Source: an uncultured Bacteroidota bacterium (GTDB lineage: Bacteria; Bacteroidota; Bacteroidia; Chitinophagales; Chitinophagaceae). Taken from it: DNA of 55,082 nucleotides. A program made the position numbers and the translations under genes. The notes below the pieces were generated by a model. It was given only the letters and a program-made list of their open reading frames with translations. It was not told where the DNA came from and searched no databases. Below are positions 12,810 to 30,107 of this stretch, in pieces (the first letter of the stretch is position 1; each line of letters begins with the position of its first letter). The stretch covers positions 1 to 55,082 of the forward strand of contig CAIYJV010000398.1 in the NCBI GenBank assembly GCA_903926605.1. Reading direction: 5' to 3'.

Positions 12810-13637
12810 TCAGTCTAATGGCAAAACAACGGAGAGGCGGAAATATGCACCTAAAGTGGGTCCTCCATTAACAAAACCAATGTAAACAACACCGCTCGAA
12901 TCAACACATCCGACCAAACTATTTAATATCGTATTCAGTGTGGAACCAGAATCTGAAACTTGATACGGTGTCCAAATTTTTACCAAAAATGGGACTTTAC
13001 TAGATGGTCGGTAGTTAGTAGGCAGTGTGAACATTACGGTTCCGTTTGTTACCGTATCTATATAGTCGATCCCAGATGAAGGACCAGTAGTAACTAAATC
13101 ACCTTTTAAATAAAGTGTGTTGGCCAAATAATCTTTTTTGTAACTAATACTTCCAGAAACCCCCAATCCCGTCAGGTAGCTTGAAAAATTGACTACGGTC
13201 CAGTTGGTTTCGCGGCAGAAGTCCTGAAGGTTGGTGAGTTTGAAAAGTGTGCCGGACTCGGCGGTGGAACTGACCAGTTGTACCAGTCCGGCTACCTGGT
13301 CGTAGATCACTGTGGGTGTGCTGCCATCGTTGAAAGTCAGGGATGTGCCATTCGTCGCGATCTGCACATAGATCGCATGCCCCAGCGCGATTGACCCATA
13401 GGTGCCGCCACCGAAACGCACCAGTGTACTGTTGTAGAGAAACCAACCTGCAGAGACTGTGGTAGTACCGAACGTGGAGGTACTGATCATGCCGGATAGC
13501 CTTACTGCGATATTTGTACCCGGATTCCGGAACCCTATTATGTTGGGCATGACCTCTGTAAATGCTGTCTGTAGGTAGCCAAGCTGGTCCTGCGTAAGGG
13601 GAAATCCTCCGGACTTTGTAAAATCAATTCTTTTCAT
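12810..13637 (-). CDS. Tail fibre-like protein
   Basis: A 275-residue protein at the distal end of the tail operon, where fibres normally lie. It opens with KRIDFTKSGGFPLTQDQL, a short adaptor segment often seen at the N-terminus of Bacteroidota phage fibre and baseplate-appended proteins. The rest is rich in Thr, Ser, Gly and Val with short strands, as expected for a beta-structured trimeric fibre. No chaperone gene follows. The receptor is unknown. The assignment rests on position, composition and the N-terminal segment. Confidence 0.65.
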   Translation of the reverse strand: MKRIDFTKSGGFPLTQDQLGYLQTAFTEVMPNIIGFRNPGTNIAVRLSGMISTSTFGTTTVSAGWFLYNSTLVRFGGGTYGSIALGHAIYVQIATNGTSLTFNDGSTPTVIYDQVAGLVQLVSSTAESGTLFKLTNLQDFCRETNWTVVNFSSYLTGLGVSGSISYKKDYLANTLYLKGDLVTTGPSSGIDYIDTVTNGTVMFTLPTNYRPSSKVPFLVKIWTPYQVSDSGSTLNTILNSLVGCVDSSGVVYIGFVNGGPTLGAYFRLSVVLPLD

Positions 13638-13673
13638 TGGATGTTGTTTTAGAAAAAGGAGTGATGAACGTGA

Positions 13674-14195
13674 TTAGAAGGTCTGTACTGAATAATTGTT
13701 CTTACCGGGCAGCCGGTACTTATCCACCACCGCACGGAGATGGGTGAATTGTCCGGCGGTCAGGGACAGAGATGCGGGAACCATAACGACAAAACAATTG
13801 TCGTCCACACCAACCTCGCTGCCGAGGCAGAGCGGGAGGACCGGCTTAATGCCTGCGGGCGTTGTCTCTGTCACCAAATAGAGTGTTTGCACAGACTGCG
13901 GTGGTATTTCCGTACCCAGGTACAAGGGTATAAAATCGAAATAGGGCGGGTCATCAATATTTATATGGCGCGCAATGGGGTCGAACACATCATTGAGCGC
14001 CGCCTCCACAAAACAAACCTGACCCGAATGGTTGAGGTAGTACAAGTTGTTGCTCCTGTTCGCGTCGAACAGGTTTTTGAGAAACACACAGGGGGCACAC
14101 AGGCACCGAAGCCAGGCCGCTATGACCGGTTGCCGCAAACGGGCCGGAATATTGTAGGTGATAATGCCGGGAATATCCACATCGAACACACTCAT
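13674..14195 (-). CDS. Tail-end/baseplate-associated protein of unknown function
   Basis: A 173-residue protein between the baseplate J-like gene and the fibre, the position held by gpI or Mu gp48-type tail proteins. I do not recognise the sequence directly. It has a helical middle (PVIAAWLRCLCAPCVFLKNLFD) and ends with a segment on how values are retrieved in strands (PLYLGTEIPPQSVQTLYLVT). The start gives MSVFDVDIPGIITYN. It probably links fibre to baseplate; that is inference from gene order. Confidence 0.55.
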   Translation of the reverse strand: MSVFDVDIPGIITYNIPARLRQPVIAAWLRCLCAPCVFLKNLFDANRSNNLYYLNHSGQVCFVEAALNDVFDPIARHINIDDPPYFDFIPLYLGTEIPPQSVQTLYLVTETTPAGIKPVLPLCLGSEVGVDDNCFVVMVPASLSLTAGQFTHLRAVVDKYRLPGKNNYSVQTF

Positions 14196-14219
14196 AATTC
14201 AGAATTTAGAAAGCGAAAA

Positions 14220-15044
14220 CTAACGCGCGATATAGGTGATATTGGCGCTGAAGAAAACCTCGTCGAGTACCATGTAGCCACTGTCTGGCTGGTACTGCAC
14301 CATACAATCTTCATAAGGCGGCGGTCCTGTAAAATAGGCCGATGCTGCAGACACATCTGCGATCTCCACCCCGTCCACGGCCTGCAGTGCCGCCACGAAA
14401 TTGTTGTAAATAAAAATGCCGTTGAAGGGCAGCGTTGCAAGAAATGCCTTCACCGCATCTTTTACAGGTGAGGCGGAAGTACCATCTATACGCGAGCCGT
14501 CTCCGTTGAGGATAAGCGGATCGTAATAAATGGTCATGACCAGCTGAAACACATCGGGCGAAGTGCTGGTGATCTGCAGGCGCACCCCCGCATCCTTCAC
14601 CCGGTGCATATATGCGGTAAGGCTGGTAAGCTGACCGCTGGTAAGGGGCGCAAGGCTACCGGACAGCAGCCGGGCCACCTTGATACGGAGATAATTGCCA
14701 TACTCGACCACAGCCGCATAACTAACCACCAGCACAGACGGATCTGCGGGCGGCACCACGGTATACACATCTGTGTCTGCAGGAAGTGCTACCCCGTACT
14801 GGAACGCCCGGGCCATAGTGGCATACCATTGCAGCGTATGGGGTTTCTGGTTACCTATAATGCCCTGCACCTCGGCTCGGTGGTTGTCGAAATTTGCCTC
14901 CAGTAAATACTGAACCGAGGCGACCACCCATGTCCAGAGCAACCACAGTGCCACATTGCTGGTACTGGAAAGCCCGCTGAGGGTGGTATCTGCGTTTTTG
15001 GCGTCTACGATACTCTGTTGTATCTGCGCAATAGATCTGGCCAT
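14220..15044 (-). CDS. Baseplate J-like protein
   Basis: A 274-residue protein matching the position and general pattern of the baseplate wedge protein J of P2 or gp47 of Mu. It opens with a helical segment (ARSIAQIQQSIVDAKN). The later region contains a DxxTVVPPADP strand set, then AYMHRVKDAGVRLQITSTSPD and the typical J feature VKDAVKAFLATLPFNGIFIYNNFVAALQAVDGV, quoted here only in part. Wedges made by this protein surround the hub. It follows the gp25-like gene in the operon, as in P2-type tails. Confidence 0.75.
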   Translation of the reverse strand: MARSIAQIQQSIVDAKNADTTLSGLSSTSNVALWLLWTWVVASVQYLLEANFDNHRAEVQGIIGNQKPHTLQWYATMARAFQYGVALPADTDVYTVVPPADPSVLVVSYAAVVEYGNYLRIKVARLLSGSLAPLTSGQLTSLTAYMHRVKDAGVRLQITSTSPDVFQLVMTIYYDPLILNGDGSRIDGTSASPVKDAVKAFLATLPFNGIFIYNNFVAALQAVDGVEIADVSAASAYFTGPPPYEDCMVQYQPDSGYMVLDEVFFSANITYIAR

Positions 15045-15100
15045 AAAAAAATCGGGGATTTACTCATTAACACTGGTCCGAAAGCACCTGGCAACGGGTC

Positions 15101-15400
15101 TTAGGGATAATATGCATCGCTCACAATAACACCGGCAGCATCGACCCTGATGCTGTTCACCTGCATGCCATCGCGTGCGAAGCGCAAACTGATCTGCCGG
15201 ATAAGGTCAAAAAAATTCTCGTCGTCCATAAAGTTCCACACACCCACACAAATACCGGGATTCTGGCGGTACTCATCGGGATTGTTCAGCAGCAGTTCTT
15301 TCTGGTGTGCGGACGTACTTTCAACGATCCCGAAGTCGCCGGAGCCGACCCATACATCCCCATCGCTGGTGACCGCAAGGTCCATCATTCGTGTAGCCAT
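15101..15400 (-). CDS. Baseplate wedge protein, gp25/W-like
   Basis: A 99-residue protein with the size and location of the gp25/W (Mu gp46) wedge protein that starts sheath assembly at the baseplate. It reads DLAVTSDGDVWVGSGDFGIVES, a strand arrangement typical of gp46-like proteins, and has a late ISLRFARDGMQV segment. Its neighbours are a J-like gene downstream and the spike upstream, which supports the call. The EPR core motif of T4 gp25 is not obvious, so the subfamily is the Mu-like one. Confidence 0.7.
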   Translation of the reverse strand: MATRMMDLAVTSDGDVWVGSGDFGIVESTSAHQKELLLNNPDEYRQNPGICVGVWNFMDDENFFDLIRQISLRFARDGMQVNSIRVDAAGVIVSDAYYP

Positions 15401-15422
15401 AACATCGCTTGTTTAAAAATTT

Positions 15423-15629
15423 TCAGGAAAGGGAGCCAGCGAATACGCCAGTCACCGCACCGCCTCCCGGTGGTGTGGCCAGTCCGCTGATATAGTTGAT
15501 GGTTGCAGATTCAATGGTAGCTACTATAGCATCTGCAAGAGCCGTTGCCGCAGACAACTGGGCAGCGCTGGGTGTACCCGGATAGTTGGCCAACAGCGCA
15601 TTTTTTATCATTGTATTGCTCAGAGACAT
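15423..15629 (-). CDS. Small baseplate-region protein
   Basis: A 68-residue protein with an amphipathic helix rich in Ala and Ile (SAATALADAIVATIESA) and a Gly/Pro-rich tail. Small proteins of this form are common next to the spike gene in contractile phages, but I cannot name a function. It lies 2 bases after the spike stop and 22 before the gp25-like start, so it is clearly part of the operon. Confidence 0.6.
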   Translation of the reverse strand: MSLSNTMIKNALLANYPGTPSAAQLSAATALADAIVATIESATINYISGLATPPGGGAVTGVFAGSLS

Positions 15630-15631
15630 GG

Positions 15632-16156
15632 TCAGAAAAGAATTTGGTTAAGATCGCTGGCATCTGCAATAAAATCACTCAGGTTTATAGGTATTCCACT
15701 AGGGCCGGTAGCGGTGCTCACAGTCAATGCCTGAATATGGGACAGCAGATTGCCCAAAACAGAAGCCAGGTTTTTCCCGCCGGCCTCCAGGCTGAAACCG
15801 GACGATGTCATATTCAGTGTGGCATTGCCTATTTTTGCCTGTAGCTGGACCAGCTCACTACAGCGCACAATACCCCATTTGCCCGGACCATCTATTGCGG
15901 CCACCCAAACCACACTGCCATCGGCGGGATATTGTACCAGACCGTTTGCATTCATGGTCACACCGTTCAGCATTACGCCGCCCACACCCGTTCCGTCATC
16001 ATCCATCGAACTGAGCGCCACAGCACACACCTGCGCGCTCCTATCCACCGAACCCGGCAATACCGTTCCCGACATGACCGGATAGGCTGAAGATAATTCC
16101 GTGGGCGCTATTATGGCCCTGAGCAGTCGTGCAATTTGTTTTTCCTGCTGTCCCAT
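15632..16156 (-). CDS. Baseplate assembly/spike protein, gpV-like (Mu gp45-like)
   Basis: A 174-residue protein from the ATG at 16156 (MGQQEKQIARLLRAI); a GTG at 16186 would touch the hub stop and is less likely. The central PADGSVVWVAAIDGPGKWGIV region resembles the OB-fold of gpV/gp45 spikes. A helical-repeat C-terminus (NATLNMTSSGFSLEAGGKNL) follows, which is the beta-helix pattern of the piercing tip. The protein punctures the target envelope when the sheath contracts. The iron-binding HxH tip motif is not visible. Confidence 0.7.
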   Translation of the reverse strand: MGQQEKQIARLLRAIIAPTELSSAYPVMSGTVLPGSVDRSAQVCAVALSSMDDDGTGVGGVMLNGVTMNANGLVQYPADGSVVWVAAIDGPGKWGIVRCSELVQLQAKIGNATLNMTSSGFSLEAGGKNLASVLGNLLSHIQALTVSTATGPSGIPINLSDFIADASDLNQILF

Positions 16157-16185
16157 TTGTGTATATAAATAACCCGTTAGCAACA

Positions 16186-17226
16186 CTACACTGAAAACCC
16201 CAGCGCGGGTCCCAGCTCCACTTTTCTACGTGCGCCACCCTTGCCGAATCGTACTTCTGTGCTTTCTACCAGATATGCGCCATTGCGCTCGGGGTAAAGA
16301 TCATCGCGCACTTCCGCGAGCCATCCAGGCGCGCAATAAGGCTCAAGAAATCCGCTTAAGTAACCGGAATATCCTTTGTAATTGGACTGGTACATTTTCT
16401 CGTTGGCAAGCCTGAGCAGTGCAGCGGCGTCGCCAATATTATTCATGATACTTACTTCCTGCCTGGCCCGGCCTTTTTCGTCGGCCTCGCTGAGCACCTG
16501 TGTGCGCACTCCCGTGGCAGAAAAATTGTGGAACACGATCTGTACCGGGTCGCTGGCGGTATGCTCGCGGAGGCCACCATCCCGGAGACAATTGTAACCC
16601 GGGCGATAAAAAACCTTGCCGGAACTGAGTGGATCTTTGCCATGCCGGAGTGGTGTATAAAGCAGCCCCATCCACAGTGTGGAAAAGTCTTTGAAAAATA
16701 CCGACATGGTCTCCTGACTGAATCGCTTTACTGCATCGCAAATCTCGGTTCCGTTCACATGGGTCAGAAGCAGATTCTGCAAGGGCAGATCGTCTGCCAC
16801 CACCACATTGATTGGGATGCCAGCCCCTTTGAATCCCTTGCGGAGATAGGACGCCAGCTGTGTAGAAGACGTGACCTCCAGACTGGCGGACACATCCATA
16901 TCCAACCGCATGACCTGTGAAAGGCCTTCGCATTCTACCTGCAAGGGCATGGACAAAGACCGTCGCCGCACAAAACCACGAAACTCCTGCTGCAGGGACC
17001 CATTGTAGCCGAGGGATATACGGACAGGATCACGATCTGAAATCAGGTCTGCGGACGCCTGGTAATCGCTCACATGGTTGCCGTTACGCACCTTGCAGAT
17101 AGCGGGAATGGTAAGTACCGCGCTATCGCTGTAGGAGTGTACCGACCGACTAATAAGCAGATCGCTCACCCCGCTGAAATGAAAATCGCCGATCTGAATA
17201 TCGCTGTTTAACTCAAAGAAAGCCAT
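16186..17226 (-). CDS. Tail hub protein, gpD/gp44-like
   Basis: A 346-residue protein with the size and order of the baseplate hub (Mu gp44, P2 gpD), which joins the tube to the spike. The C-terminal part has a characteristic gpD-like region with AxLLRLANEKMYQSNYKG and GWLAEVRDDLYPERNGAYLVES. An early FRGFVRRRSLSMPLQVECEG segment fits the hub beta-domain. It precedes the spike gene and follows the gene for a DUF6046-like protein. No lysozyme domain is inserted. Confidence 0.75.
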   Translation of the reverse strand: MAFFELNSDIQIGDFHFSGVSDLLISRSVHSYSDSAVLTIPAICKVRNGNHVSDYQASADLISDRDPVRISLGYNGSLQQEFRGFVRRRSLSMPLQVECEGLSQVMRLDMDVSASLEVTSSTQLASYLRKGFKGAGIPINVVVADDLPLQNLLLTHVNGTEICDAVKRFSQETMSVFFKDFSTLWMGLLYTPLRHGKDPLSSGKVFYRPGYNCLRDGGLREHTASDPVQIVFHNFSATGVRTQVLSEADEKGRARQEVSIMNNIGDAAALLRLANEKMYQSNYKGYSGYLSGFLEPYCAPGWLAEVRDDLYPERNGAYLVESTEVRFGKGGARRKVELGPALGFSV

Positions 17227-17250
17227 GTATTGTTTTGCTTTATCGTATGC

Positions 17251-17874
17251 TCAGGAATCTTGTGCTACCAGGCTGAAAGGCTCATCGCTTACGCAGACCA
17301 GCTCAAAAGGACGTATGTGTTTTACCCCCGTGAGCGCAGGAAAAGAAAGCTCCCGCAACACCACATTGTCACTGCCGCTCCTGTCGGGATGCAGCAGGAA
17401 CAGGTCGGTGAGCGCACACTTGAGACTAACAGGCAAATTGGCTTCGAACAAGTCTCGCAGTCGGGCCGTTTCCTGTTCCGGGAAGTTATTCCCGGAGCCT
17501 GCCAGAAATCCCTTGATCCGGATAACGTAATCCTGAATATTGATCAATTCCTTCACTGTACCCCGGCGCTCCGTTAGTGGCGTCTCCACAATCGTTTTTC
17601 TGCCAGAGACCGAGACCACGCAATAGGGAAGCATCCAGTCCCGGCGTTCCACAGTGCTACCTGCATCTGCAGACACCGAATAAGTAAATGTTACCGGCAG
17701 AAAGACTTCCCTGCCTGCCGCGTCTGCCGCATAATAGGGGCTTCCCAACATTCCCGATGAAAGGCGGGAAGAGGGGCTATCTCCGGAAACAAGCTTGAAA
17801 TCCGGATCGAAAGCCTTACTGCGGTATCCGAAAGCCTCAACGAAAAGATCTGCGAGCGAAAAACTGATCTCCAT
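17251..17874 (-). CDS. Tail protein, DUF6046-like
   Basis: A 207-residue protein between the tape-measure position and the hub. This position in Mu-like and P2-like tails is held by gpU/gp43-type or LysM-containing tube-initiation proteins. The sequence has paired strand motifs, such as VFLPVTFTYSVSADAG and RDWMLPYCVVSVSGRKTIVET, ending in PFELVCVSDEPFSLV. I recall this pattern from DUF6046 proteins of Bacteroidota phages, but that is memory rather than a search. No LysM motif is visible. Confidence 0.6.
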   Translation of the reverse strand: MEISFSLADLFVEAFGYRSKAFDPDFKLVSGDSPSSRLSSGMLGSPYYAADAAGREVFLPVTFTYSVSADAGSTVERRDWMLPYCVVSVSGRKTIVETPLTERRGTVKELINIQDYVIRIKGFLAGSGNNFPEQETARLRDLFEANLPVSLKCALTDLFLLHPDRSGSDNVVLRELSFPALTGVKHIRPFELVCVSDEPFSLVAQDS

Positions 17875-17892
17875 ATTCTATTGTGTTTTGTG

Positions 17893-19059
17893 CTAAGAAG
17901 TGCTTGCGGTGCGGAGGATGCGCAACAAGGCCTCCCGCACGCGTGGTTCAAATTCTGTTTCCCATTCGGCAGCCGAGCCCACCATTACAGACTCTGTCTG
18001 AAAAAGTGGCGCACTGAAATTGATGACCGGGTTTACTTGATTGCTGCCGGCACCCGCCTGTGGGCTATCTCGATGGAACAACCGGCTCCAAAAACCGGGC
18101 GCGACCGGCACATCCACTTGCGGATCGGTACCTGTCCACGCTGCCCCCCTTTGAAAACCCTGTGCTTCGGTGGTGCCCGACCAGGGACCGGAGTCCATTT
18201 CCAGCAAATTATCCTTTATCGGAATGTCCGCCCATCCTTCAGCTGATTGATGAGCGATGTTCAGGATGCACATAACGAAAGCCTTATCAAAAACGTGTCT
18301 GTGATGAAAGAATTCCGGATCACCTAGTGGCAGGGAACCTATATCAGTTAAGCCATCTACTTCCGTGAAACTGCTTTTGTGATGACCGAATTCATGATTT
18401 CCGGAACTACCGGATAAAGCCAACGAACTATTTGAAAAAGCAATGTTCGCCCCTACTCTTCCCACAAAATCCTGAACGCCCAAAGCAGGCCCCAGTCCAA
18501 TAGTTGGATGGTATGCAGAAGAAACGTCAGACCGGGCATCCACTCGGTACGGGAGAATTCCATCATGGCAAAACGGCGACGTGTATAGCGCCAGCTCAAG
18601 TGCATCGGAAGACTCCCCGTTGCGAGTGTGCAACTTATCACTTCTGTCGGTTGTCCCAAACACTTTGTTTGCCTGCCCGGGGTCCACTGAACGCTTATCC
18701 TGCAAAGCGACACGCTGCAGCAACCCACCAACTGACCACAAAATATTCGGGGCCATTGCTTGCTCTTCACCAGCCGATCTGGTTGTGCTGCCAGCAACCG
18801 GCGCGATACCACTTCCACTATACCCGGAATCAGAGACAGAAGGAGAACCGAATCGCTCACCCAATTGACGTACAAAAGCAGTGTTCCAAGTACCGCCATC
18901 CCACATTGGCCAAAGCACGGACGACAGACCTGACAGCGGTTGGCAGTAGGCTGCGACATCGTCTTTTCTCCACAGCTGAAACGGCAATTGCCTCCAGACA
19001 ACAATGCCCGGATCTTCAGTTGGCGCACCATCAAGCGATTTATGGTGTTCTCGTGTCAT
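17893..19059 (-). CDS. Short protein in the tape-measure position
   Basis: A 388-residue protein between the tail chaperone and the hub genes, exactly where the tape-measure protein should be. The C-terminus, from NPVINFSAPLFQTESV to EPRVREALLRILRTAS, has the strand-then-helix ending seen in many tape-measure proteins. Otherwise it is odd: no long coiled coil, no clear membrane segment, rich in Gly, Ser, His and Trp. Mu gp42 and P2 gpT are about 690 and 815 residues. At roughly 0.15 nm per residue it would set a tail of at most about 58 nm. It may be a shortened tape measure or a decayed gene with an open frame. Confidence 0.5.
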   Translation of the reverse strand: MTREHHKSLDGAPTEDPGIVVWRQLPFQLWRKDDVAAYCQPLSGLSSVLWPMWDGGTWNTAFVRQLGERFGSPSVSDSGYSGSGIAPVAGSTTRSAGEEQAMAPNILWSVGGLLQRVALQDKRSVDPGQANKVFGTTDRSDKLHTRNGESSDALELALYTSPFCHDGILPYRVDARSDVSSAYHPTIGLGPALGVQDFVGRVGANIAFSNSSLALSGSSGNHEFGHHKSSFTEVDGLTDIGSLPLGDPEFFHHRHVFDKAFVMCILNIAHQSAEGWADIPIKDNLLEMDSGPWSGTTEAQGFQRGAAWTGTDPQVDVPVAPGFWSRLFHRDSPQAGAGSNQVNPVINFSAPLFQTESVMVGSAAEWETEFEPRVREALLRILRTASTS

Positions 19060-19100
19060 TTGAAATCTGATGTGGTTGGAAGTGAAAAAATCTGATCATC

Positions 19101-19286
19101 CTATCTGCCCGAAAATGGACTGTTCATCTCCTGCTCTCTGCCCAGCAGGTAACGCAAATGTCCAAGCCGCAGGGCAAACTCCCGGTCGCTTGCGACAGCC
19201 TGGTTGAAACCCGGCATATAACGATACAACAGGCTTTCGGCAAAACCCAGGGAATCCAGAGCCGGCTTGCTGAATTCCCTTATAAG
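19101..19286 (-). CDS. Tail chaperone C-terminal extension made by -1 frameshift
   Basis: Read in the -1 frame after the slip site, this segment gives 61 residues: LIREFSKPALDSL near its start, then a MPGFNQAVASDREFAL segment and an ELM-like polar end (REQEMNSPFSGR). It has no early ATG, GTG or TTG start in frame. The frame is open through the overlap. The fusion would be about 164 residues (103+61), like gpGT or Mu gp41/42. It ends 41 bases before the tape-measure-position gene. The product is inferred from the slippery site and coding-like composition. Confidence 0.8.
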   Translation of the reverse strand, partial: LIREFSKPALDSLGFAESLLYRYMPGFNQAVASDREFALRLGHLRYLLGREQEMNSPFSGR

Positions 19287-19594
19287 TTTCCCAGCGATGC
19301 CGGGACGCCGTTCATTTTTTGCCGCAACTGAATAGCCGCGCCAATAAACATGGCATCGTTGGTAAGCACCTCGCGGCTTCCAAACAGGAAGAGCAGATCT
19401 GCAAATTTTTCGGCAACGGCCAGCGGCCGCTGCGGGTCGGCCACGGCCAGTGACGCATTCACATCGTGGCGGGTGGGCTCACGGAAATAGGCAATGTGGT
19501 CCTGCACCTTGATAAAGAATAACCCTGTCGGATTCTCGCGTTTCATTTTTGTAATGAGGTCTTCATCCGCCAACCCAATAAGTTGCTTGTTCAT
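19280..19594 (-). CDS. Tail assembly chaperone (gpG/gp41-like), zero-frame product
   Basis: A 104-residue protein after the tube gene and before the tape-measure position, the place of gpG-type tail assembly chaperones. It reads DLITKMKRENPTGLFFIKV and AVAEKFADLLFLFG, and ends MNGVPASLGNL. Near its 3' end the heptamer GGGAAAC lies in the correct phase (G GGA AAC), followed at once by TTA TAA. A -1 slip would bypass the stop and add 61 residues. The short product is predicted to coat the tape measure, and the long one to link it to the tube during assembly. Confidence 0.85.
   Translation of the reverse strand: MNKQLIGLADEDLITKMKRENPTGLFFIKVQDHIAYFREPTRHDVNASLAVADPQRPLAVAEKFADLLFLFGSREVLTNDAMFIGAAIQLRQKMNGVPASLGNL
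19286..19292 (-). promoter_or_regulatory. -1 ribosomal frameshift slippery site GGGAAAC
   Basis: On the minus strand GGGAAAC sits in zero frame as G GGA AAC, matching X XXY YYZ. The zero-frame stop follows two codons later at 19280-19282. A single -1 slip enters the frame that continues to 19101. Confidence 0.85.
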
Positions 19595-19615
19595 ATTCTG
19601 ATTGATTTATGGATT

Positions 19616-20047
19616 TTACAAACTGGTCATGTTCAGGAAAAGGAAGGGCAGCTCTACCTCCATTTCGGTGGCGCCTTGCTCCCAGCCCTTGTCGTAGTTA
19701 CTTACCTCGCACCCTACCAGCACATCGGTCTGTGGCGGACGCACACCCTTGGCTTTGTAATACACGACCACATCAAAAACGAGATCGGTGATGTCGCGAC
19801 CGCCGGCAGTCACTGCGGCGGCATTCATCGCGTCAATAGCGCTTTTCAGCACATGCAGTGTGCCGGCGGGTCGCCTGTTGCCGGACTGAATGGAGACAGG
19901 ATCGTCGCCTCCTGCATACAAGTGCTTTTTCTCTGTTTTTACGCCATATTTCAGGCCGCGTATTTTAGTGAGCTGAGCCCCCGAAACCGAAATGGTCATA
20001 TCGGCCCACTCGCACTCCTTACTGTCGAAAAAATTAATGCTTGCCAT
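19616..20047 (-). CDS. Tail tube protein
   Basis: A 143-residue protein directly after the sheath gene, the usual tube position in contractile tails. It reads ADMTISVSGAQLTKIRGLKYG and later VFDVVVYYKAKGVRPPQTDVLVG, and finishes with EMEVELPFLFLNMTSL. This alternating strand pattern fits the tube fold built of stacked hexamers. It is preceded by sheath and followed by the frameshifted chaperone, so the order sheath-tube-chaperone supports the call. Confidence 0.8.
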   Translation of the reverse strand: MASINFFDSKECEWADMTISVSGAQLTKIRGLKYGVKTEKKHLYAGGDDPVSIQSGNRRPAGTLHVLKSAIDAMNAAAVTAGGRDITDLVFDVVVYYKAKGVRPPQTDVLVGCEVSNYDKGWEQGATEMEVELPFLFLNMTSL

Positions 20048-20095
20048 AAAGTGATTTTAAAAGATTGAGAAAATTTCAGACAACTGCGCAGAAGA

Positions 20096-21265: not shown

Positions 21266-21315
21266 AAAAAATTGATTTTAGTCGTTTGAAAAATGCATTT
21301 ATACCGGCTGATCAT

Positions 21316-21579: not shown

Positions 21580-21618
21580 AACATTTGTTTTTGATTGCCA
21601 TCCATTAAAAAATAAGGG

Positions 21619-22077: not shown

Positions 22078-22088
22078 GGCACAAACGG

Positions 22089-22924: not shown

Positions 22925-22943
22925 ACAATAGTTGTTGTTGCGT

Positions 22944-23201: not shown

Positions 23202-23220
23202 ACAGATTTGCTTTTGGGGG

Positions 23221-23493
23221 TTACAAATATCCTTTCTCGCGCCTGCGTTCGGCAAGCCATGCGGCCTCATCGTCGGTAAGGGCGTAAAGCCTGCGTCTCT
23301 TGTCACGCGCTTGCTTCAGTTTCCAGTGTATTTTCAAACAATAGTCTACGATCGCCAGTACGGCTACGATCATGGACAATACTAGCGCTACAGTCTCATA
23401 ACGGAAAGCCACCAGCAACATGGGCGACCAGCTCCCTGCCAGCAGGAGAATTCCGTGCACGTCGTGATTCACAAAAAAGGATGGTTGTTTCAT
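23221..23493 (-). CDS. Small membrane protein, second holin candidate
   Basis: A 90-residue protein with two hydrophobic segments (about residues 13-29 and 33-50, VALVLSMIVAVLAIVDY) and a very basic C-terminal helix (KLKQARDKRRRLYAL). It is the first gene after the terminator-like structure behind the capsid gene. Holin or anti-holin is plausible; the sequence does not prove it. Confidence 0.55.
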   Translation of the reverse strand: MKQPSFFVNHDVHGILLLAGSWSPMLLVAFRYETVALVLSMIVAVLAIVDYCLKIHWKLKQARDKRRRLYALTDDEAAWLAERRREKGYL

Positions 23494-23506
23494 CTGGCTT
23501 CGAGTT

Positions 23507-23595
23507 TTAAAAAAGACAAAAGGCTTGCCCGGACATGACCCTGTTGTTCATGAAAGTGCTTGTCCGCGACAGCGGTTTGGCCTGCCGGGCAAGCC
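23507..23595 (-). terminator. Branched terminator-like RNA structure after the capsid gene
   Basis: On the minus strand an 11-base stem (GGCTTGCCCGG with CCGGGCAAGCC) encloses 52 bases containing two further hairpins: CCGC-tgtc-GCGG and CATGA with TCATG around a 9-base loop. A T-rich run follows directly (TTTTGTCTTTTTT). This is a three-way junction with a terminator tail, about 20 bases after the capsid stop. Confidence 0.7.
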
Positions 23596-23615
23596 AGTTG
23601 TCCCTTATGTGTTCG

Positions 23616-24743
23616 CTATGCCGCGGCCTGTACCACCGCGATTATATTTTCCTCGTTGGCCCTGCGAATGCGGGCACCCATGCGCTGGAGGAAGGAGAAC
23701 AGATCTCCGTAATACACGGGCGAGTCGGCCTGGCTGAAGAACTTCGTGGGCCCCTTTGCGCGACCCACCGCATTTTTTTGCCAGAAAATACCTGCGGCAT
23801 TGTCAGTAGCCGCACCACTTGTTCCGTATGCATTCAGCACAGGCGTACCCGCATTGTTGTAGGTTACCACATTCGCACGCCTGAATATTTTAAACCCGAG
23901 TATCTCTTTCAGCTCATTGGTGTTGGCGTCGAACAAAACAGAGCTGTCGCGGTATTTGCTGATGATCAGGTCGTCCACCAGCTCGCTGTACATATCTACG
24001 TCCAGTATGCCATAGCGGTCCGACCGGCTCACGTTGGCTTTGTCCATTTTCGTAGCAATGGCTTTCAAGTCATACAAACCAAACTTCAGTCTGTCACCGG
24101 TAGCACTCGGTGTATGGGCCGCTACCGCCAGGGGCGTAGCAGTGGGATCATTGTTTGGTATACCTGTAGTGCGCACAATGTTCGCGGCTGGAGCCCATTT
24201 GGTGAGGATATAGTCGGCTATCACTTCGTTCAGGCTCTCTTCATGTTCCATTAGCACGCTCTCGCGTTTGTCGTACGACAACTCCACCAGGTCCGCGTTG
24301 GGAATAAGGATCGGGTCACTGGTATACACGTCCAGATTGTAGGTGATGTCGGTGTCGGTACGCTGTACCACCGTAGCGGGCAGCGACGACCTGTTCACTT
24401 GTATGTTGGCTTTGACGCCTGCCTGCGGTATGTGCACCACCTTGCCGCCCAGCACATATTGGCTTTCATCAACCGATGCCAGCAGGAATTCATTGTTCCG
24501 GAACAGATTTCCTTCTATGTGGTTTTCCCATATCTCTTTCTGCACACCACACACGGCTGCGCCAGCGGATGCCACAACCGGAGCCGGCAAAATAAACGAC
24601 AGTGCATACAGCCCTACAGCTACCATTCCCAGCATACCTGCTGGTACATGCAGCGCAGTAGCGCCAATACCCGCAAAACCATATAGGCAAACCGCGACCA
24701 TTGCTGCGGCGAGTAAACCACTCCACTTCAGTTTTCTTTTCAT
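23616..24743 (-). CDS. Major capsid protein with hydrophobic N-terminus
   Basis: A 375-residue protein. From about residue 70 it reads like Bacteroidota phage capsid proteins: QKEIWENHIEGNLFRNNEFL, GGKVVHIPQAG, then LVELSYDKRESVLMEHEESL and the C-terminal YYGDLFSFLQRMGARIRR. The first 60 residues are unusually hydrophobic, with two membrane-like stretches (LLAAAMVAVCLYGFAGIG and MLGMVAVGLYALSFILPA). They may be a scaffold-like delta segment removed by the protease encoded just upstream, or a membrane-targeting part. The gene has a terminator behind it, as expected for a highly made product. Confidence 0.85.
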   Translation of the reverse strand: MKRKLKWSGLLAAAMVAVCLYGFAGIGATALHVPAGMLGMVAVGLYALSFILPAPVVASAGAAVCGVQKEIWENHIEGNLFRNNEFLLASVDESQYVLGGKVVHIPQAGVKANIQVNRSSLPATVVQRTDTDITYNLDVYTSDPILIPNADLVELSYDKRESVLMEHEESLNEVIADYILTKWAPAANIVRTTGIPNNDPTATPLAVAAHTPSATGDRLKFGLYDLKAIATKMDKANVSRSDRYGILDVDMYSELVDDLIISKYRDSSVLFDANTNELKEILGFKIFRRANVVTYNNAGTPVLNAYGTSGAATDNAAGIFWQKNAVGRAKGPTKFFSQADSPVYYGDLFSFLQRMGARIRRANEENIIAVVQAAA

Positions 24744-24791
24744 TTTTTTGGATTTTTGTTTGAAATTTAAATTGAGAATTATTCAGCCCGT

Positions 24792-25805
24792 TCACACGTT
24801 GGCAGGGGCCTTTCCAAATTTCCGTTGGTACTTTTCCTTGTAAAGACCGGGGGCCTTTTCTAAAAGCAGCACCAGTTTATCTGCTTTGTCCAGTTCGTCG
24901 TAAGACATATCTGACAGGTCCCTGATCTCATCCGGAATTTTACCAAGCCGTTCCGCGATAGACTGATAGACAGGGAAAGATCCTACCAGCTTGCCCAGTG
25001 CCTCAGGGTTGTCTGTAAAGTGCAATTCCAGTTCAGCCTTTGCGGCTTGCGTCAACCGACCATCATTCAGTCCGCGCTCCAGTATTTCCTTCACTTCATT
25101 CATGCGGACCTGCTTGTTCGCAGCATCAATTTCCAGCCGCAGTTTGTTACCGCTTTCTTTCATTTCACGAAGCCTGCGGACGATGTTGCCCTCGTCATGA
25201 ACATCACCCAGGTCCAGCATTTCCAGAACCTCATTTGTCAGTGTCAGTTCCACTTTCTTAAAACCTCCATCTGCTATTCTGGGTTCTGCTATTTCATCTG
25301 ATTTGCTTTTGCGGCGGCTCCCGGCAACTCCCGACCGGCCCATAAGGTCCTGCACAGTGATTATTGACCCGTCGCTATCGGCAAGCTCCGTACGAAAAGC
25401 CTCCCTGTTGCCCGGATTGTCTACGAGGCTGCATTCCTTGTTATACCACTTGTCCACCACCACCACGTCTTCCTGTCCGTTGCCTGACTCTTCTGCGTGA
25501 AATTCAAGCACCACTATATTGCCCAGAGAAGCAGCATTCAGGAATCCTTCTTCTATTTCAGTCACGGTCCGTTCACCCCTTGGATGTTCCAGATTCACCA
25601 CGGGCTTGCCCAATATGCGGTCTCCGTCTATCCTTACTTCATCCCAACGTACCAATACGCCATCTTCTTGTTCATGCCCGTAATAGCCGATTGGATTTTT
25701 CAGAAATTCTTCGATCAGGTAACCCGATGTCACCAGGCGAAACCCATATACATTCACGCTGCTGTCGGACAACACAAAATCGAGGTCTATTTTTTTTGAA
25801 GCCAT
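24792..25805 (-). CDS. Prohead protease fused to scaffold domain
   Basis: A 337-residue protein. The first 170 residues look like an HK97/S78-type prohead protease: FVLSDSSVNVYGFRLVTSG, then the region with Ser in GFLNAASLGNIVVLEF. The remaining half is charged and helical (EMKESGNKLRLEIDAANKQV, KAELELHF), as in an internal scaffold. Proteases of this type mature the capsid by trimming the capsid N-terminus and scaffold. It is the first large gene of the minus arm, 48 bases before the capsid gene. Confidence 0.75.
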   Translation of the reverse strand: MASKKIDLDFVLSDSSVNVYGFRLVTSGYLIEEFLKNPIGYYGHEQEDGVLVRWDEVRIDGDRILGKPVVNLEHPRGERTVTEIEEGFLNAASLGNIVVLEFHAEESGNGQEDVVVVDKWYNKECSLVDNPGNREAFRTELADSDGSIITVQDLMGRSGVAGSRRKSKSDEIAEPRIADGGFKKVELTLTNEVLEMLDLGDVHDEGNIVRRLREMKESGNKLRLEIDAANKQVRMNEVKEILERGLNDGRLTQAAKAELELHFTDNPEALGKLVGSFPVYQSIAERLGKIPDEIRDLSDMSYDELDKADKLVLLLEKAPGLYKEKYQRKFGKAPANV

Positions 25806-25957
25806 GATTTCTTTTTTTTGTTTGTGATCACCGGGAGATTTTTATTACATTTTGTTTCAGGATAGCCGGATGCCTCTGGTGGTGGCTTGGGCTTTCTTGC
25901 GCCTCTTGTTTTCGCAGTCTTCTTACTGGTGCATGCATACTGTTTCATACTGCTCAT
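25787..25957 (-). CDS. Small basic protein at the head of the minus arm
   Basis: A 56-residue reading from the ATG at 25957 (MSSMKQYACTSKK), very rich in Lys and Pro (KTRGARKPKPPPEA, NKKKKSWLQKK). A purine-rich GGAAAGAAG precedes the start. It overlaps the protease start by 19 bases, so coupling is possible. I recognise no family; a TTG start at 25978 would add 7 residues. A DNA-binding role is only a guess from its charge. Confidence 0.4.
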   Translation of the reverse strand: MSSMKQYACTSKKTAKTRGARKPKPPPEASGYPETKCNKNLPVITNKKKKSWLQKK

Positions 25958-26020
25958 TTTCGCTTCTTTCCGACACAAAATTCACACACAAAATCACCCT
26001 CAACAAATCACGATTCCGCA

Positions 26021-26063
26021 GTGATACAAGCCCTGTGCCACTACGATACCGTTATTGTATCGT
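26021..26063. promoter_or_regulatory. Operator-like inverted repeat in the divergent control region
   Basis: ACGATAC and GTATCGT (26043-26049 and 26057-26063) form a perfect 7-base inverted repeat around a 7-base spacer. A further half-site, GTGATAC, lies at 26021-26027. The site sits between the two divergent arms. A weak -7-like TAAAATTTG follows it toward the terminase gene. A regulator of particle expression could bind here; none is encoded in the locus. Confidence 0.5.
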
Positions 26064-26162
26064 CATAAAATTTGCGCCCCCGACAAGCCTTTTTTAGTGC
26101 CGAATTTTGTGTGGAAATACGCTGGAATACGGCGTTTAGAAACACAATCCGCACAGGTGATC

Positions 26163-27725
26163 ATGGCGACAAGAAACAAGAACTGGAACCTATTGCAGGC
26201 CGCACGAGGTGTGAAGGGAAAGCACGAACCGTCAGAGGCCGAATACGACAAAAATCGTCGCGTAAAAAACCTTGAAAAAGACCCAGAAGCATGGTTCAGA
26301 TACTATTTCGAAGACTTCTGCACTTCCCCCGCCGCCGACTTTCACATAGCCGCTACCCACAGATTACTGCAGCACGAAGAATGGTTTGAAGTACGAGCCT
26401 GGAGCAGAGAATTGGCCAAGTCATCACGCACCATGATGGAAGTGCTCTACCTCACGCTGGTGGGCTATCCCGAAAACGAAAAAATTAAACTTCCTCGCAA
26501 AACGAAAAAAGCCACGGTTAAAAAAAATCTCCGTCGCACAAAATCAAACGTACTGCTCATTTCCAACTCACTCGAAAACGCGAAACGACTGCTGGATCCG
26601 TATCGCGCAAATTTTGAACAAAATGAAAAAATCAAAAAAGACTATGGCATCCAGGAAAAACAAGGCTCCTGGTCGGCAGATGAATTTGTTACGGTGTCGG
26701 GAGTCTCGTTCAGGGCCATAGGTGCCGGACAGTCGCCACGCGGCACACGAAACCAGGCCAAACGCCCCGACCTCATCCTGTTCGACGATGTGGACACCGA
26801 CGAAGATTGCCGCAACCCGGAAGTCATTCAAAAACGATGGAAATGGATACAGGAGGCAGTGATCCCAACACGATCGGTATCCGGCCCATTGCTCATCCTG
26901 TTCTGCGGCAACATCATAGCACAGGACTGTTGCGTACTAAGGGCTACAAAATTTGCCGATCATACCGACACCGTCAATATCCGAAACGAACAGGGCTTGT
27001 CTACCTGGCCCGAAAAAAACAAAGAGTCCGATATAGACAGGGTGCTTAGTCTGATATCCCTTTCGTCTGCGCAAAAGGAGTATTTCAATAATCCGGTCTC
27101 TGAAGGTGCGGTATTTTCCAGTATTACCTACAAGCCCTGCTTGTTATTGTCCGAATATGACAAACTGGTGTGCTACACCGACCCCAGCTACAAGGAGTCC
27201 AGGAACAATGACTTCAAGGCAACGGTGCTGTGCGGACGGAAGGGCGACGAATTCCACATCCTGAAAGCCTTTGTGTTCCAGGGCACCGTCGCGAGGATGA
27301 TAGACGCGCACTATGAGATCATGGACTATGTGGGAAACGCCAATTGTTATTACTTTCTGGAGCAGGTTTTTTTACAGGAAATGTTCTTGCAGGAGTTTTA
27401 CGAAGCTGGGAAACAGCGCGGACGTATGGTTCCGGTCACCGGGGACAAGCGCGCGAAACCGGACAAATACATGCGCATCGAGTCACTCCTGGAGCCACTG
27501 TGTCGAAACGGAAAACTTTTTCTGAACGACGCAGAGCGAAACACATCCGGGATGCGGGTACTGGAGCAGCAGTTTCTTGCTTTCGGGCCCGGAAGCAATG
27601 CGCATGACGACGGGCCGGATGCCGTAGAAGGCGCCATCTGGATCATCAACAACAAATCTGCAATTCCGGCCACACAACACATCGGTTTGATTGGCCGAAC
27701 CCGGCACGATTCCAAATTCTTTTAA
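26163..27725 (+). CDS. terL: Large terminase subunit
   Basis: A 520-residue packaging motor. The start at 26163 gives MATRNKNWNLL and has AGGTGA 3 bases before it; a longer reading from 26055 adds 36 unlikely residues. Walker A is a deviant type (SRELAKSSRTMM), Walker B is RPDLILFDDVD. The nuclease domain has Asp in CYTDPSYKESRNNDFKA, acidic YYFLEQVFLQE and the third acidic site HDDGPDAVEGA. All catalytic acids are present, so packaging activity is plausible. No small terminase is beside it. It opens the plus arm. Confidence 0.9.
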   Translation: MATRNKNWNLLQAARGVKGKHEPSEAEYDKNRRVKNLEKDPEAWFRYYFEDFCTSPAADFHIAATHRLLQHEEWFEVRAWSRELAKSSRTMMEVLYLTLVGYPENEKIKLPRKTKKATVKKNLRRTKSNVLLISNSLENAKRLLDPYRANFEQNEKIKKDYGIQEKQGSWSADEFVTVSGVSFRAIGAGQSPRGTRNQAKRPDLILFDDVDTDEDCRNPEVIQKRWKWIQEAVIPTRSVSGPLLILFCGNIIAQDCCVLRATKFADHTDTVNIRNEQGLSTWPEKNKESDIDRVLSLISLSSAQKEYFNNPVSEGAVFSSITYKPCLLLSEYDKLVCYTDPSYKESRNNDFKATVLCGRKGDEFHILKAFVFQGTVARMIDAHYEIMDYVGNANCYYFLEQVFLQEMFLQEFYEAGKQRGRMVPVTGDKRAKPDKYMRIESLLEPLCRNGKLFLNDAERNTSGMRVLEQQFLAFGPGSNAHDDGPDAVEGAIWIINNKSAIPATQHIGLIGRTRHDSKFF

Positions 27726-27765
27726 TCGGTACTCACAATTCACTCAAAATAAAAAAACGATCATT

Positions 27766-28212
27766 ATGGCATACACTCCCATAGTTACTACAGCCGACCT
27801 CCATACGCACATCTATGATGAGCAACTGGACGAAATAACCAGAGACGATGGTGGCATATTAGCCGGAAAGGCACTGGACATCGCTTTCGACGAAGTGAAA
27901 GCATATCTGAGCCGTTTCGACCTGCTGGCATTGTTCGGCAGCTCGGAACAGGATGTCTCCGCATCCGTCTCCGATGAATTTCTCAAAAACCTGATCAAGG
28001 ACATTGCCGTCTGGCAGATCATCAAACTAGGCAACCCATCCATAAACTACGACCACAGCCGGTGGTGCTACGAGGCAGCTTTGTCGACCCTTGAAAAAAT
28101 TCAGGCAGCCGGTATCACACCTCAAAACTGGCCGCTCATGGCCGCCGCATCGCCCCAATCCGACGTCACCGTACAAAGCTCCAGCACACCACTGCGCAAC
28201 AACTATTATTGA
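27766..28212 (+). CDS. Head-tail connector-like protein (DUF1320/Mu gp36-like)
   Basis: A 148-residue protein from the ATG at 27766 (MAYTPIVTTADLHTHI). The pattern ITTxDLxxxIYxEQLDEITRDD, then a KALDIAFDEVKAYLSRFDL helix and VWQIIKLGNPSI, matches gp36-like adaptors of Mu-type phages. These form a ring between portal and tail. A longer reading from 27691 would overlap the terminase and is unlikely. No Shine-Dalgarno site precedes it. Confidence 0.75.
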   Translation: MAYTPIVTTADLHTHIYDEQLDEITRDDGGILAGKALDIAFDEVKAYLSRFDLLALFGSSEQDVSASVSDEFLKNLIKDIAVWQIIKLGNPSINYDHSRWCYEAALSTLEKIQAAGITPQNWPLMAAASPQSDVTVQSSSTPLRNNYY

Positions 28213-28239
28213 TTTACAGCACTTCTAAAAAAACACTTT

Positions 28240-29460
28240 ATGGCAACAACAATCTCATCCGCAAAAAAAACAAAGCAACCGAACGGACAGCCCGGAAAAC
28301 CTGGCGTGAACAAGGAAAACCAAACTATTTATGCCGACAATCCGATCGTGGGCGGCGAGGAAAAACTGGTCATCAACGAACTGCAGATACGGCAGGTGGT
28401 GCGAACGTCCTCAGACATCCGAAACTGGCGCTCTGCGCTCAACGCAGCCGAATCCCGCTACTTCCCCAACCGCACCTGGCTCTACAACCTTTACGAAGAG
28501 GTAGTACTGGACGGCCACTTGTCGGGCATTATGCAGAAACGTATAGACACCGTACTGAACAAATCTCTGCTGTATAAGGATTCCGAAGGCAGGGAGGTGG
28601 CGGCAATGAACGCATGCATCGCCTCCCGCCAGTTCCGTAAAGTGCTGCAGTACATCATGGAGACCGTTTTCTGGGGCGTGAGCGGTATGGAGTTCATACC
28701 CGGAGCGGTACTACAGGTTCGCTCCATTCCGCGCAAACACATCAAGACCAAAACCCAGCTCATTTCGTTCGAGGAAAATGTTCAGGACGAGGGAATAGAT
28801 TATACGAAGCTGGACAATGTATGGATCACCGGCGAAGCAGAAGACCTGGGGCTTCTGAACAAATGCGTCCCCTATGTCTTGTACAAACGGGGGTTATTTG
28901 CAGACTGGGCCCAGTTCATCGAGATATTCGGTCAGCCAGTGCGCATTGCACGCTATGATGTATTTGACAACAACACGCGGGATGCACTGATGGAAACACT
29001 GGAGAAAGCAGGCTCGTCGCTGGCGCTGCTCATTCCCAAAACAGCCGATTTCGAGATCATGGACGGCAAAACGGCCAACGCAAACGGTGAACTGCAGTAT
29101 ACCTTTAAAGAGTCCTGCAACCAGGAACTGTCCATCATCGTACTGGGAAATACAGAAACCACTTCGGGCTCCAACGGCGCCGGGTCGCAGGCTAAAGCAA
29201 AAACTCACCTCGAGCAGCAGCAGCAAATATCCAGATATGACATTGCCTACCTCACGTCCATGCTCAACGAACCTGCATTCTCCAGAATTCTGGCCTCTTA
29301 TGGATTGCCAGTTTGCACGGGTGGTTACTTCGAGATCAGCCGCGATATTGATATAGACTTCCTGACTGCCCGGAAAGAAATTGACCTCGCTATACGGAAT
29401 GCCGGCATAGCCCTTTCCGACGAATATTTCTACCAGACTTACTCCATCCCACGCCCCTGA
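28240..29460 (+). CDS. Portal protein (DUF935, Mu gp29-like)
   Basis: A 406-residue portal of the Mu gp29 (DUF935) family, the dodecameric ring through which DNA enters and leaves the head. The family pattern is clear in WLYNLYEEVVLDGHLSGIMQKR, the strand region FWGVSGMEFIPG and GLFADWAQFIEIFGQPVRIARY. It ends DYSIPRP-like (QTYSIPRP). The first 50 residues are polar and unconserved. It is 27 bases after the gp36-like gene. Confidence 0.88.
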   Translation: MATTISSAKKTKQPNGQPGKPGVNKENQTIYADNPIVGGEEKLVINELQIRQVVRTSSDIRNWRSALNAAESRYFPNRTWLYNLYEEVVLDGHLSGIMQKRIDTVLNKSLLYKDSEGREVAAMNACIASRQFRKVLQYIMETVFWGVSGMEFIPGAVLQVRSIPRKHIKTKTQLISFEENVQDEGIDYTKLDNVWITGEAEDLGLLNKCVPYVLYKRGLFADWAQFIEIFGQPVRIARYDVFDNNTRDALMETLEKAGSSLALLIPKTADFEIMDGKTANANGELQYTFKESCNQELSIIVLGNTETTSGSNGAGSQAKAKTHLEQQQQISRYDIAYLTSMLNEPAFSRILASYGLPVCTGGYFEISRDIDIDFLTARKEIDLAIRNAGIALSDEYFYQTYSIPRP

Positions 29461-29507
29461 ACGAATGCCGCGTCACGCCTTTTTACGTACTTTAAAAATA
29501 ACGCCTT

Positions 29508-30071
29508 ATGATCAGCCCCACCGCCAATTTGCTGCTTGGTCTCCGCGACACGATTTCCAACCTCGCCGACCCCGATGGAAAAAAATACTTCAGCTTCACA
29601 GATCAGGAAACCGGCCAGTTAGAACAGGCAGGCAATAGCTCACGATATCCCATCACCTTTCCCTGTGTCCTAATTGACTTTGAAGAGATACGTTTTACTG
29701 CGGCCTCAGACCATGTGCAGTCCGGTTTGTGTACCGTATGCCTCAAGGTAGCGTTCCCGCCCAATAGTGCTTCGGATTCAATGGTACCGGATGCCTATCT
29801 GAAAAAGGCACTGTATTATTACGATCTGGAACAAATCCTGTACCTCGCACTGCAGGGAAAACCGCCCACGCTTCCCGACTCAGGCGGGGCCGACCTGCTG
29901 AAAGATATCTATGGTAATTTCAACCGCATATCGGCTTCCACGATAAAACGTAAGGATGCCTTACGGGTGCGATTGCTGCGATTTGAGATCCGTTACGACG
30001 ACTATTCAGCCAAACCCGGATACAGTCTGCACCCAGCCGCATGGGATATTTCCACCGGCATTCAGTTATAA
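29508..30071 (+). CDS. Tail completion/terminator-like protein
   Basis: A 187-residue protein after the portal gene. It opens with a helix (LLLGLRDTISNLADPDG) and then strands (YPITFPCVLIDFEEIRFTA, GLCTVCLKVAF), a layout seen in tail-terminator and Mu gp37-type proteins that cap the tube. I cannot separate these from sequence alone. It closes the plus arm and is followed by a hairpin. Confidence 0.6.
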   Translation: MISPTANLLLGLRDTISNLADPDGKKYFSFTDQETGQLEQAGNSSRYPITFPCVLIDFEEIRFTAASDHVQSGLCTVCLKVAFPPNSASDSMVPDAYLKKALYYYDLEQILYLALQGKPPTLPDSGGADLLKDIYGNFNRISASTIKRKDALRVRLLRFEIRYDDYSAKPGYSLHPAAWDISTGIQL

Positions 30072-30082
30072 ACAGAGTGGAG

Positions 30083-30107
30083 CCCCCGGCCTAAATGGCC
30101 GGGGGTT
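30083..30107 (+). terminator. Hairpin at the end of the plus arm
   Basis: CCCCCGGCC pairs with GGCCGGGGG around a TAAAT loop, then TTGCT. The T-tract is weak but the stem is strong. It lies 11 bases after the last plus-arm stop, marking the likely locus edge. Confidence 0.75.

Follow-up and report, generated by a model that had tools for sequence, protein, structure and literature searches.

Positions 12810–30071 of contig C398 (55,082 bases, hereafter the window) harbor a full set of genes for a contractile phage-like particle, without a transposase, a repressor, a replication gene, or a small terminase subunit (TerS), amid ordinary Chitinophagaceae genes. The contig belongs to a genome of 3.97 Mb in 426 contigs, 97% complete, labeled G000 in the trees, identity tables, and approximately unbiased (AU) tests. 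We read this locus as the structural half of a Mu-type element that has no transposase and that the host most likely keeps as a particle factory, the regulatory half being probably located on another contig (C109) of the same genome. We assign a probability of about 0.52 to the domestication of this copy for a role resembling that of a gene transfer agent (GTA). A sister system found in related genomes, named here lineage A, has very probably been domesticated, as judged from its chromosomal place, dispersal, inheritance, selection, operator wiring, and the distribution of transposases; it represents a candidate Mu-derived, contractile GTA and looks like the first GTA in Bacteroidota.

In the case of the window copy, domestication is supported by the intactness of all its frames, by the lack of transposase, Dam, Mu F, and Mu G (the same genes missing from lineage A), by its short portal and tape measure, by the C109 module, and by the absence of any transposase match in the genome; selection presumably acts on it.

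The particle locus

The particle genes fill all the frames across the locus and, once the frames were re-read, amount to about 23 intact genes. An earlier inspection of the DNA letters (the sequence-only reading) had listed about 21 frames for head, packaging, and contractile tail and a right edge at 30107; the content is as described, the gene number is somewhat higher, and the edge falls at 30071, next to a host CoA-binding gene starting at ~30126. The genes are organized in two divergent sets, one on the minus strand (12810–25805), running from the protease through capsid, lysis, sheath, tube, a chaperone-like gene, the tape-measure-position gene, hub, and baseplate to the fibre, and one on the plus strand (26055–30071), comprising the large terminase subunit (TerL), a gp36-like gene, the portal, and g24:

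12810–13637, minus: g01, tail fibre or tip, last of the tail operon; conserved block-end gene in 16 genomes, weak match to phrog_8092.
13674–14195, minus: g02, baseplate protein; same position kept in 19 genomes.
14220–15044, minus: g03, baseplate protein at a P2 J-like position; phrog_38413 1.5e-56, 20 genomes.
15101–15400, minus: g04, small baseplate wedge at a gp25-like position; 15 genomes, function by position only.
15423–15629, minus: g05, small protein of the baseplate region; present in few relatives.
15632–16186, minus: g06, spike-like protein; 16 genomes, function by size and position.
16186–17226, minus: g07, baseplate hub; phrog_4930 5e-37.
17251–17874, minus: g08, hub-associated DUF6046 protein; PF19512 4e-25, phrog_5233.
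17893–19059, minus: g09, short tape-measure-position gene, 388 residues; assigned by position, with a C-terminal E.LLR.L.SA as in the tape-measure proteins of relatives.
19280–19594, minus: g10, chaperone-like tail assembly protein; phrog_19076 1.5e-9, 20 genomes.
19616–20047, minus: g11, tail tube; phrog_4579 tail protein, after the sheath in 21 genomes.
20096–21265, minus: g12, contractile tail sheath (DUF2586); PF10758 7.5e-47, and the top PDB matches of its predicted structure are contractile sheaths of pyocins and phages (Foldseek; R2 pyocin 3j9q, E 1.2e-8).
21316–21579, minus: g13, small protein; homologues in 4 genomes.
21619–22077, minus: g14, M15 peptidase endolysin; PF13539 5e-14, phrog_2649 4e-37.
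22089–22924, minus: g15–g16, membrane or spanin-like lysis genes; N-terminal signal or lipoprotein-like and transmembrane stretches, position.
22944–23493, minus: g17–g18, holin-like membrane proteins; transmembrane stretches, homologues in complete prophages.
23616–24743, minus: g19, major capsid protein, extended at its N-terminus by a hydrophobic leader of ~65 residues; phrog_267 4e-35, profile match to the solved major capsid protein 9jwb (PDB) 2.6e-10.
24792–25805, minus: g20, Mu-I-like prohead protease/scaffold; PF10123 0.002, phrog_11321 1e-40.
25806–26054, no strand: intergenic divergent promoter region between the capsid–tail and packaging operons.
26055–27725, plus: g21, TerL; phrog_38 1e-71, motifs intact by alignment.
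27691–28212, plus: g22, Mu gp36-like adaptor; PF07030 6e-5.
28240–29460, plus: g23, Mu-type portal, short form of 406 residues; Portal_Mu PF06074 4e-60.
29508–30071, plus: g24, tail-terminator-like protein directly 3' of the portal, with Mu F and Mu G absent; phrog_6911 5e-16.

The Mu-type portal, the terminase, the capsid, and the contractile sheath indicate an origin in a tailed phage (Caudoviricetes), as expected of a GTA, and the Mu-like origin is clear, as had been proposed. The catalytic residues of the terminase were indeed found intact, the motifs SRELAKS, LILFDDVD, YTDPSY, and HDDGPDA being unbroken and also present in one aligned relative. The flanks consist of cellular genes (HflX, ClpB, type IX secretion system proteins with their sorting domains, and an S41 peptidase), in agreement with the first description, and the named relatives are Flavipsychrobacter, Taibaiella, and Chitinophagaceae metagenome-assembled genomes (MAGs). 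Probing the 55 kb of the window (tblastn) with TerS, MuA, MuB, Mu F, Mu G, Dam, Gam, and Mor-like sequences did not retrieve any match, in agreement with the reported lack of transposase and small terminase. With no adjoining early region and no Mu F or G head genes in these 55 kb, the locus does not qualify as a complete Mu-like prophage; nor does it qualify as an R-type tailocin, since capsid, portal, terminase, and protease are all present.

The capsid leader (24540–24743) consists of two hydrophobic stretches ahead of a conserved MAIQ start; it is common to the window, to genome G124, and to several Mu-like prophages, and most lineage-A capsids start at MAIQ. An AlphaFold model of the capsid including the leader reached a mean confidence (pLDDT) of 38 and was not used.

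A regulatory module elsewhere in the same genome

The lack of a repressor stated by the sequence-only reading holds for the window and not for the genome. Contig C109 carries, adjoining a host gene, an S24 repressor, p114, Gam (PF07352 5e-24), and Mor-like genes, and the same four genes lie near the cluster of G124, the closest relative of the window copy (capsid identity 75%). The system of this genome would consist of a structural cluster plus an unlinked repressor–Gam–Mor contig, the multi-locus case being weaker here given the draft state of the assembly (426 contigs). A Mu-type transposase was searched for in the whole genome with zero matches, unlike what is expected of a complete prophage, which has a MuA-type transposase with its ATPase.

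Two TerS candidates in this genome, on C212 and C66, were discarded, being only weak matches to a multi-copy TerS-like family. Members of this helix-turn-helix family lie outside phage loci (G000:C212:5449-5871 and G000:C66:19609-20034), occur also in G248, G291, G089, and G124, and have frames of 170–419 residues.

Complete prophages and reduced clusters in the family

The relatives were sorted by reading 20–80 kb around the matches of a capsid profile; since the genomes are mostly MAGs, linkage and absence may err in single cases. The profile search retrieved capsid relatives from 40 out of 396 genomes of the family, among them the window genus in full (four of four genomes, with lineage A in three) and 28 of 35 and 9 of 11 genomes in two other genera.

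Six complete Mu-like prophages (G244b, G198b, G287b, G193b, G143, and G283) share homologues of nearly all the structural genes of the window, in the same order. Unlike the window, they and a further one, G339, possess TerS, Mu F, Mu G, an early region, mostly Dam, and longer portals (430–480 residues in complete prophages, 445–480 in these seven) and tape measures (545–730 residues); MuA-type transposase, MuB-like ATPase, and repressor are in view in several of them. Lineage A, in turn, is devoid of transposase, Mu F, Mu G, and Dam, with portals mostly of 353–382 residues (some called frames giving up to 404–421) and genes mostly of 287–490 residues at the tape-measure position. The window matches this reduced form, its 406-residue portal being accompanied by a 388-residue tape-measure-position gene, short as had been noted. 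In the sequence-only reading, transposase genes immediately past the ends of the locus in relatives would have counted against domestication; the transposase-bearing prophages turned out to be separate copies, located at other sites than the reduced clusters, and transposase matches come only from genomes in which a complete or near-complete prophage copy is present as well.

The Mu F-like protein of one complete prophage (371–1618) ends with a PBECR2 nuclease-like domain (PF18810 6e-11) and is a possible cargo toxin, whose gene was dropped by the reduced elements.

Lineage A: location, dispersal, inheritance, and selection

Lineage A was found in at least four genera, with up to four chromosomal loci per genome. 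Ten genomes of two genera have mreD, mreC, and mreB (F16, F17, and F20) next after the last tail gene, and then usually carB. The packaging block (TerS–TerL–gp36–portal–g24) adjoins the capsid–tail block in some genomes and is separated from it in others, by 125 kb in G248, 86 kb in G324, and ~20–24 kb in G398, G198, and G116 (14–125 kb overall); in G003 and G287 it lies on other contigs. Full endogenisation, often as multiple loci, belongs to the definition of GTAs (PMC9662315), and lineage A displays it with up to four loci 14–125 kb apart. The definition further comprises the packaging of mostly random host DNA, an own genome too large to be packaged whole, and the delivery of DNA to other cells. 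For lineage A, the dispersal would inevitably prevent the packaging of its entire own genome.

The tree of the host genes (mreBCD and carB) and that of ten capsid–tail proteins have all seven splits in common, an agreement that none of 2000 permutations equaled, and their Mantel correlation is 0.92; the regulatory module recovers six of seven host splits and the packaging block five of six. Block 2 of lineage A departs from the host tree at a single split for which the host genes give good support, so that some exchange is possible. Mostly vertical inheritance and co-diversification with the host, as known for GTAs, are seen in lineage A; the window copy, which is not an orthologue and sits at a site of its own, does not show them. 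The ratio of nonsynonymous to synonymous substitution rates (dN/dS) is quoted for close pairs only, because many between-species dS values are saturated. For the pair G002/G003 it is 0.010 (capsid), 0.038 (sheath), 0.00 (tube), 0.078 (protease), and 0.157 (hub), the tape-measure-position gene reaching 0.42; the pair G089/G171 gives 0.010 (capsid), 0.042 (sheath), and 0.017 (tube). In close pairs, the dS of the particle genes resembles that of the flanking genes. Moreover, the GC content of the lineage-A cluster tracks that of the host from 0.35 to 0.55.

The sequence-only reading had left the choice between a domesticated particle and a trimmed prophage, to be decided by conservation at the same site and by dN/dS. 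Both checks favor domestication in the sister system, which lies beside mreDCB–carB in two genera and whose dN/dS is well below 1; GTA-like domestication of this particle type is therefore well supported in the family. The window copy passes neither, its site being lineage-specific and no close relative being available for dN/dS.

A truncated block (protease, capsid, lysis, and a broken sheath) is found near mreBCD in G096:C3 (13100–18000), with a second, divergent copy on C36; it is possibly the outcome of decay following replacement.

Operators and a DnaA-domain protein in lineage A

A third lineage-A locus, found in 16 genomes in host surroundings (a few without one gene), embeds an S24/LexA-type repressor and, divergent from it, a MuB-like ATPase, a Bac_DnaA_C protein, p105, and Mu Gam; the Mor-like gene often forms a fourth. 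In several genomes, one and the same inverted repeat, of a sequence specific to each genome, occurs in the promoters of both separated blocks. With the core promoter removed, own pairs average 35.6 vs. 21.1 for cross pairs (0/20000 permutations). Shared operators are clearest in G244, G321, G417, G398, G419, and G291, and are absent in G287, G116, G089, and others. The blocks are spaced by ~1 kb in G417, 2–13 kb in several genomes, ~13 kb in G244, and ~24 kb in G398; G398 and G244 weigh most, because the blocks of the other genomes lie close together.

The DnaA DNA-binding domain (PF08299) of the module protein matches down to 1e-14. An exact DnaA box, TTATCCACA, is located upstream of terS (by ~115 bp) in four genomes and upstream of the protease gene (by 138–139 bp) in three, G244 and G321 having it in both promoters. 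Exact boxes occur in 8 of ~30 lineage-A promoters vs. 12 of 338 background upstream regions and are hence not universal. The DnaA-domain protein presumably binds them. GafA, the activator of the Rhodobacter capsulatus GTA (RcGTA), has a DnaA-like DNA-binding domain and binds 75–125 bp upstream of terS (PMC6363796, PMC9638019). The lineage-A protein would be analogous to GafA in its domain and in the position of the boxes.

Origin of the window copy and competing explanations

The presence of the capsid gene in four out of four genomes of the genus had suggested that the window copy might be an orthologue of the vertically inherited cluster; this idea was dropped in view of the capsid trees, the identities, and the AU tests. 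In capsid trees, G000 groups with G124, outside lineage A.

Several data weigh against domestication of the window copy. Its median identity is 45.5–47% to G124, G291, and G001 and 45.5% to the prophage G198b, i.e., ~46% vs. the 55–65% shared by lineage-A members among the same genera. The AU test rejects a clade of lineage A plus G000 for the portal (p 2e-5), and one including also G124 for both the portal (p 0.03) and TerL (p 4e-37). The genes of the cluster are mosaic, and its insertion site is lineage-specific: the f2HSDR–S41 pair to the right of the cluster is kept in relatives, there without phage genes, and since its left neighbor differs in every relative, a single ancestral empty site is not definable. 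The GC content of the cluster (0.51) is 3–5 points higher than that of the flanks (0.48 and 0.46), as in many prophages. According to these data, the window copy is, on sequence grounds, a separate reduced derivative rather than a member of lineage A, possibly a more recent one. Furthermore, TerS was not clearly found in its genome; no operator common to the window and C109 was found, the similarity of the window promoter to the C109 control region being not above that of shuffles; and C109 could be misbinned or part of another remnant. The divergent promoter of the window contains no DnaA box and no recognized inverted-repeat operator.

The main rival explanation regards the window copy as a Mu-like prophage without a selected function, from which the early region, Dam, Mu F, and Mu G were deleted. 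Intact frames would then reflect recent loss, and the C109 genes would be a rearranged piece or the leftover of another prophage. The prophage-like GC offset, the lineage-specific site, the missing TerS, the lack of a close relative for dN/dS, and the clustering of the capsid and other genes with transposase-bearing prophages all agree with such an origin. However, the structural, packaging, and lysis genes have all stayed intact although entire functional classes were lost, the losses recur in G124 and in the vertically inherited lineage A, and regulators are retained without a transposase; we consider a trimmed prophage the less likely reading.

A PBSX-type weapon, in which host DNA is packaged incidentally and the tail kills competitors rather than moving genes, would fit the contractile tail, the lysis genes, and the S24-type repressor, which suggest inducible lysis, and a relative (G009) has a headless, tailocin-like version of the same tail. 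However, in lineage A, the capsid and packaging genes are conserved together with those of the tail, the capsid (dN/dS 0.01) being one of the most constrained, none of which a weapon acting by its tail alone would require; this possibility appears improbable. That the element is still mobile in trans, satellite-like, through the transposase or integrase of another phage would explain why its site differs among the species of the window genus, but it is scarcely credible, in that no Mu-type transposase has a match anywhere in the window's genome, no mobility gene adjoins any reduced cluster read, and a single transfer event cannot move the dispersed loci of lineage A.

Proposed mode of action

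If the window copy and lineage A are domesticated, the following steps can be depicted. DNA damage or stress would relieve the LexA/CI-type (S24) repressor in an SOS-type response, and the Mor-like protein, in lineage A together with the DnaA-domain protein, would turn on the divergent capsid–tail–lysis and packaging operons. Gam would guard DNA ends, and TerL would fill small heads by headful packaging with chromosomal DNA, because no transposase or transposition amplifies the element. Lysis would be brought about by the M15 endolysin with the spanin-like and holin-like gene products, after which short contractile tails would inject the packaged DNA into other cells; induction, packaging of host DNA, and delivery are what we infer from the gene set. 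Tail length is usually 0.15 nm per tape-measure residue, and the 388 residues of the window protein suggest a tail of ~58 nm.

Comparison with known systems

RcGTA is not known to derive from a Mu-type phage or to have a contractile tail. Unlike RcGTA, lineage A combines a Mu-type head and a contractile sheath with an S24 repressor, a MuB-like ATPase, and Gam, and occurs in Bacteroidota; the window copy differs from both in having neither the DnaA-domain protein nor DnaA boxes. What lineage A shares with the rhodogtaviriformids (R. capsulatus and the Caulobacter CcGTA) is the organization of phage-derived particle genes in several loci (five in RcGTA), vertical inheritance, lysis genes, the lack of mobility genes, and a regulator with a DnaA-like domain, with DnaA boxes near terS in some genomes (PMC9662315, PMC6363796, PMC9638019). 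The BaGTA of Bartonella and the BhGTA/VSH-1 of Brachyspira are likewise independent domestications of tailed phages, from other phage ancestors and with tails reported as non-contractile; the BhGTA cluster, of 16.3 kb, is similar in size to the window locus (PMC9662315).

Transposable phages in GenBank (from Bacteroides, Porphyromonas gingivalis, and Flavobacterium) share 44% (TerL), 43% (capsid), and 33% (portal) identity; they differ in being complete phages or prophages, and their sheath is merely 23–33% identical or absent. PBSX-like phages and R-type tailocins are also reduced chromosomal phage loci with a contractile tail and lysis genes, but tailocins lack head genes.

The formal recognition of GTAs evaluated three independent groups (PMC9662315). 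In the literature searched, no paper joining "gene transfer agent" and Chitinophagaceae was found, and the most relevant Bacteroidota paper among those retrieved reports lateral transduction rather than a GTA. We tentatively propose, at somewhat less than even odds, that Chitinophagaceae carry a new GTA family, the first in Bacteroidota and the first of Mu-type contractile build, with up to four loci, co-evolving operators, and a GafA-analogous DnaA-domain regulator; the genome of the window would lack the common version and represent a second, independent domestication. If true, a Mu-derived, contractile, vertically inherited GTA would have arisen independently in another phylum, and the comparison would separate the phage genes that are repeatedly discarded (transposase, Dam, Mu F, and Mu G) from those retained (terminase, capsid, sheath, lysis, Gam, and repressor). 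The steps from phage to GTA would be readable from parallel reductions in two lineages and from complete relatives in some of the same genomes, and a cultured environmental carrier of lineage A, Flavipsychrobacter stenotrophus RB1R16, which has a complete Mu-like prophage as well, makes the system testable.

Other observations

A headless, tailocin-like tail locus of the same phage family is located in an 8 Mb Chitinophagaceae genome (G009:C51, 3196–19620); it embeds sheath, tube, a 572-residue tape measure, hub, baseplate, amidase, holin, fibres, tail terminator, and a Mor-like gene, and no capsid, portal, or terminase match was retrieved from it. The sheath gene of G124 (16338–17681) has a hydrophobic N-terminal extension resembling that of the G124 capsid gene. 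Lastly, many "viral" contigs of ~11–14 kb in IMG/VR contain the protease-to-baseplate block alone, without a terminase, as expected if domesticated chromosomal blocks had been trimmed out and filed as viruses.

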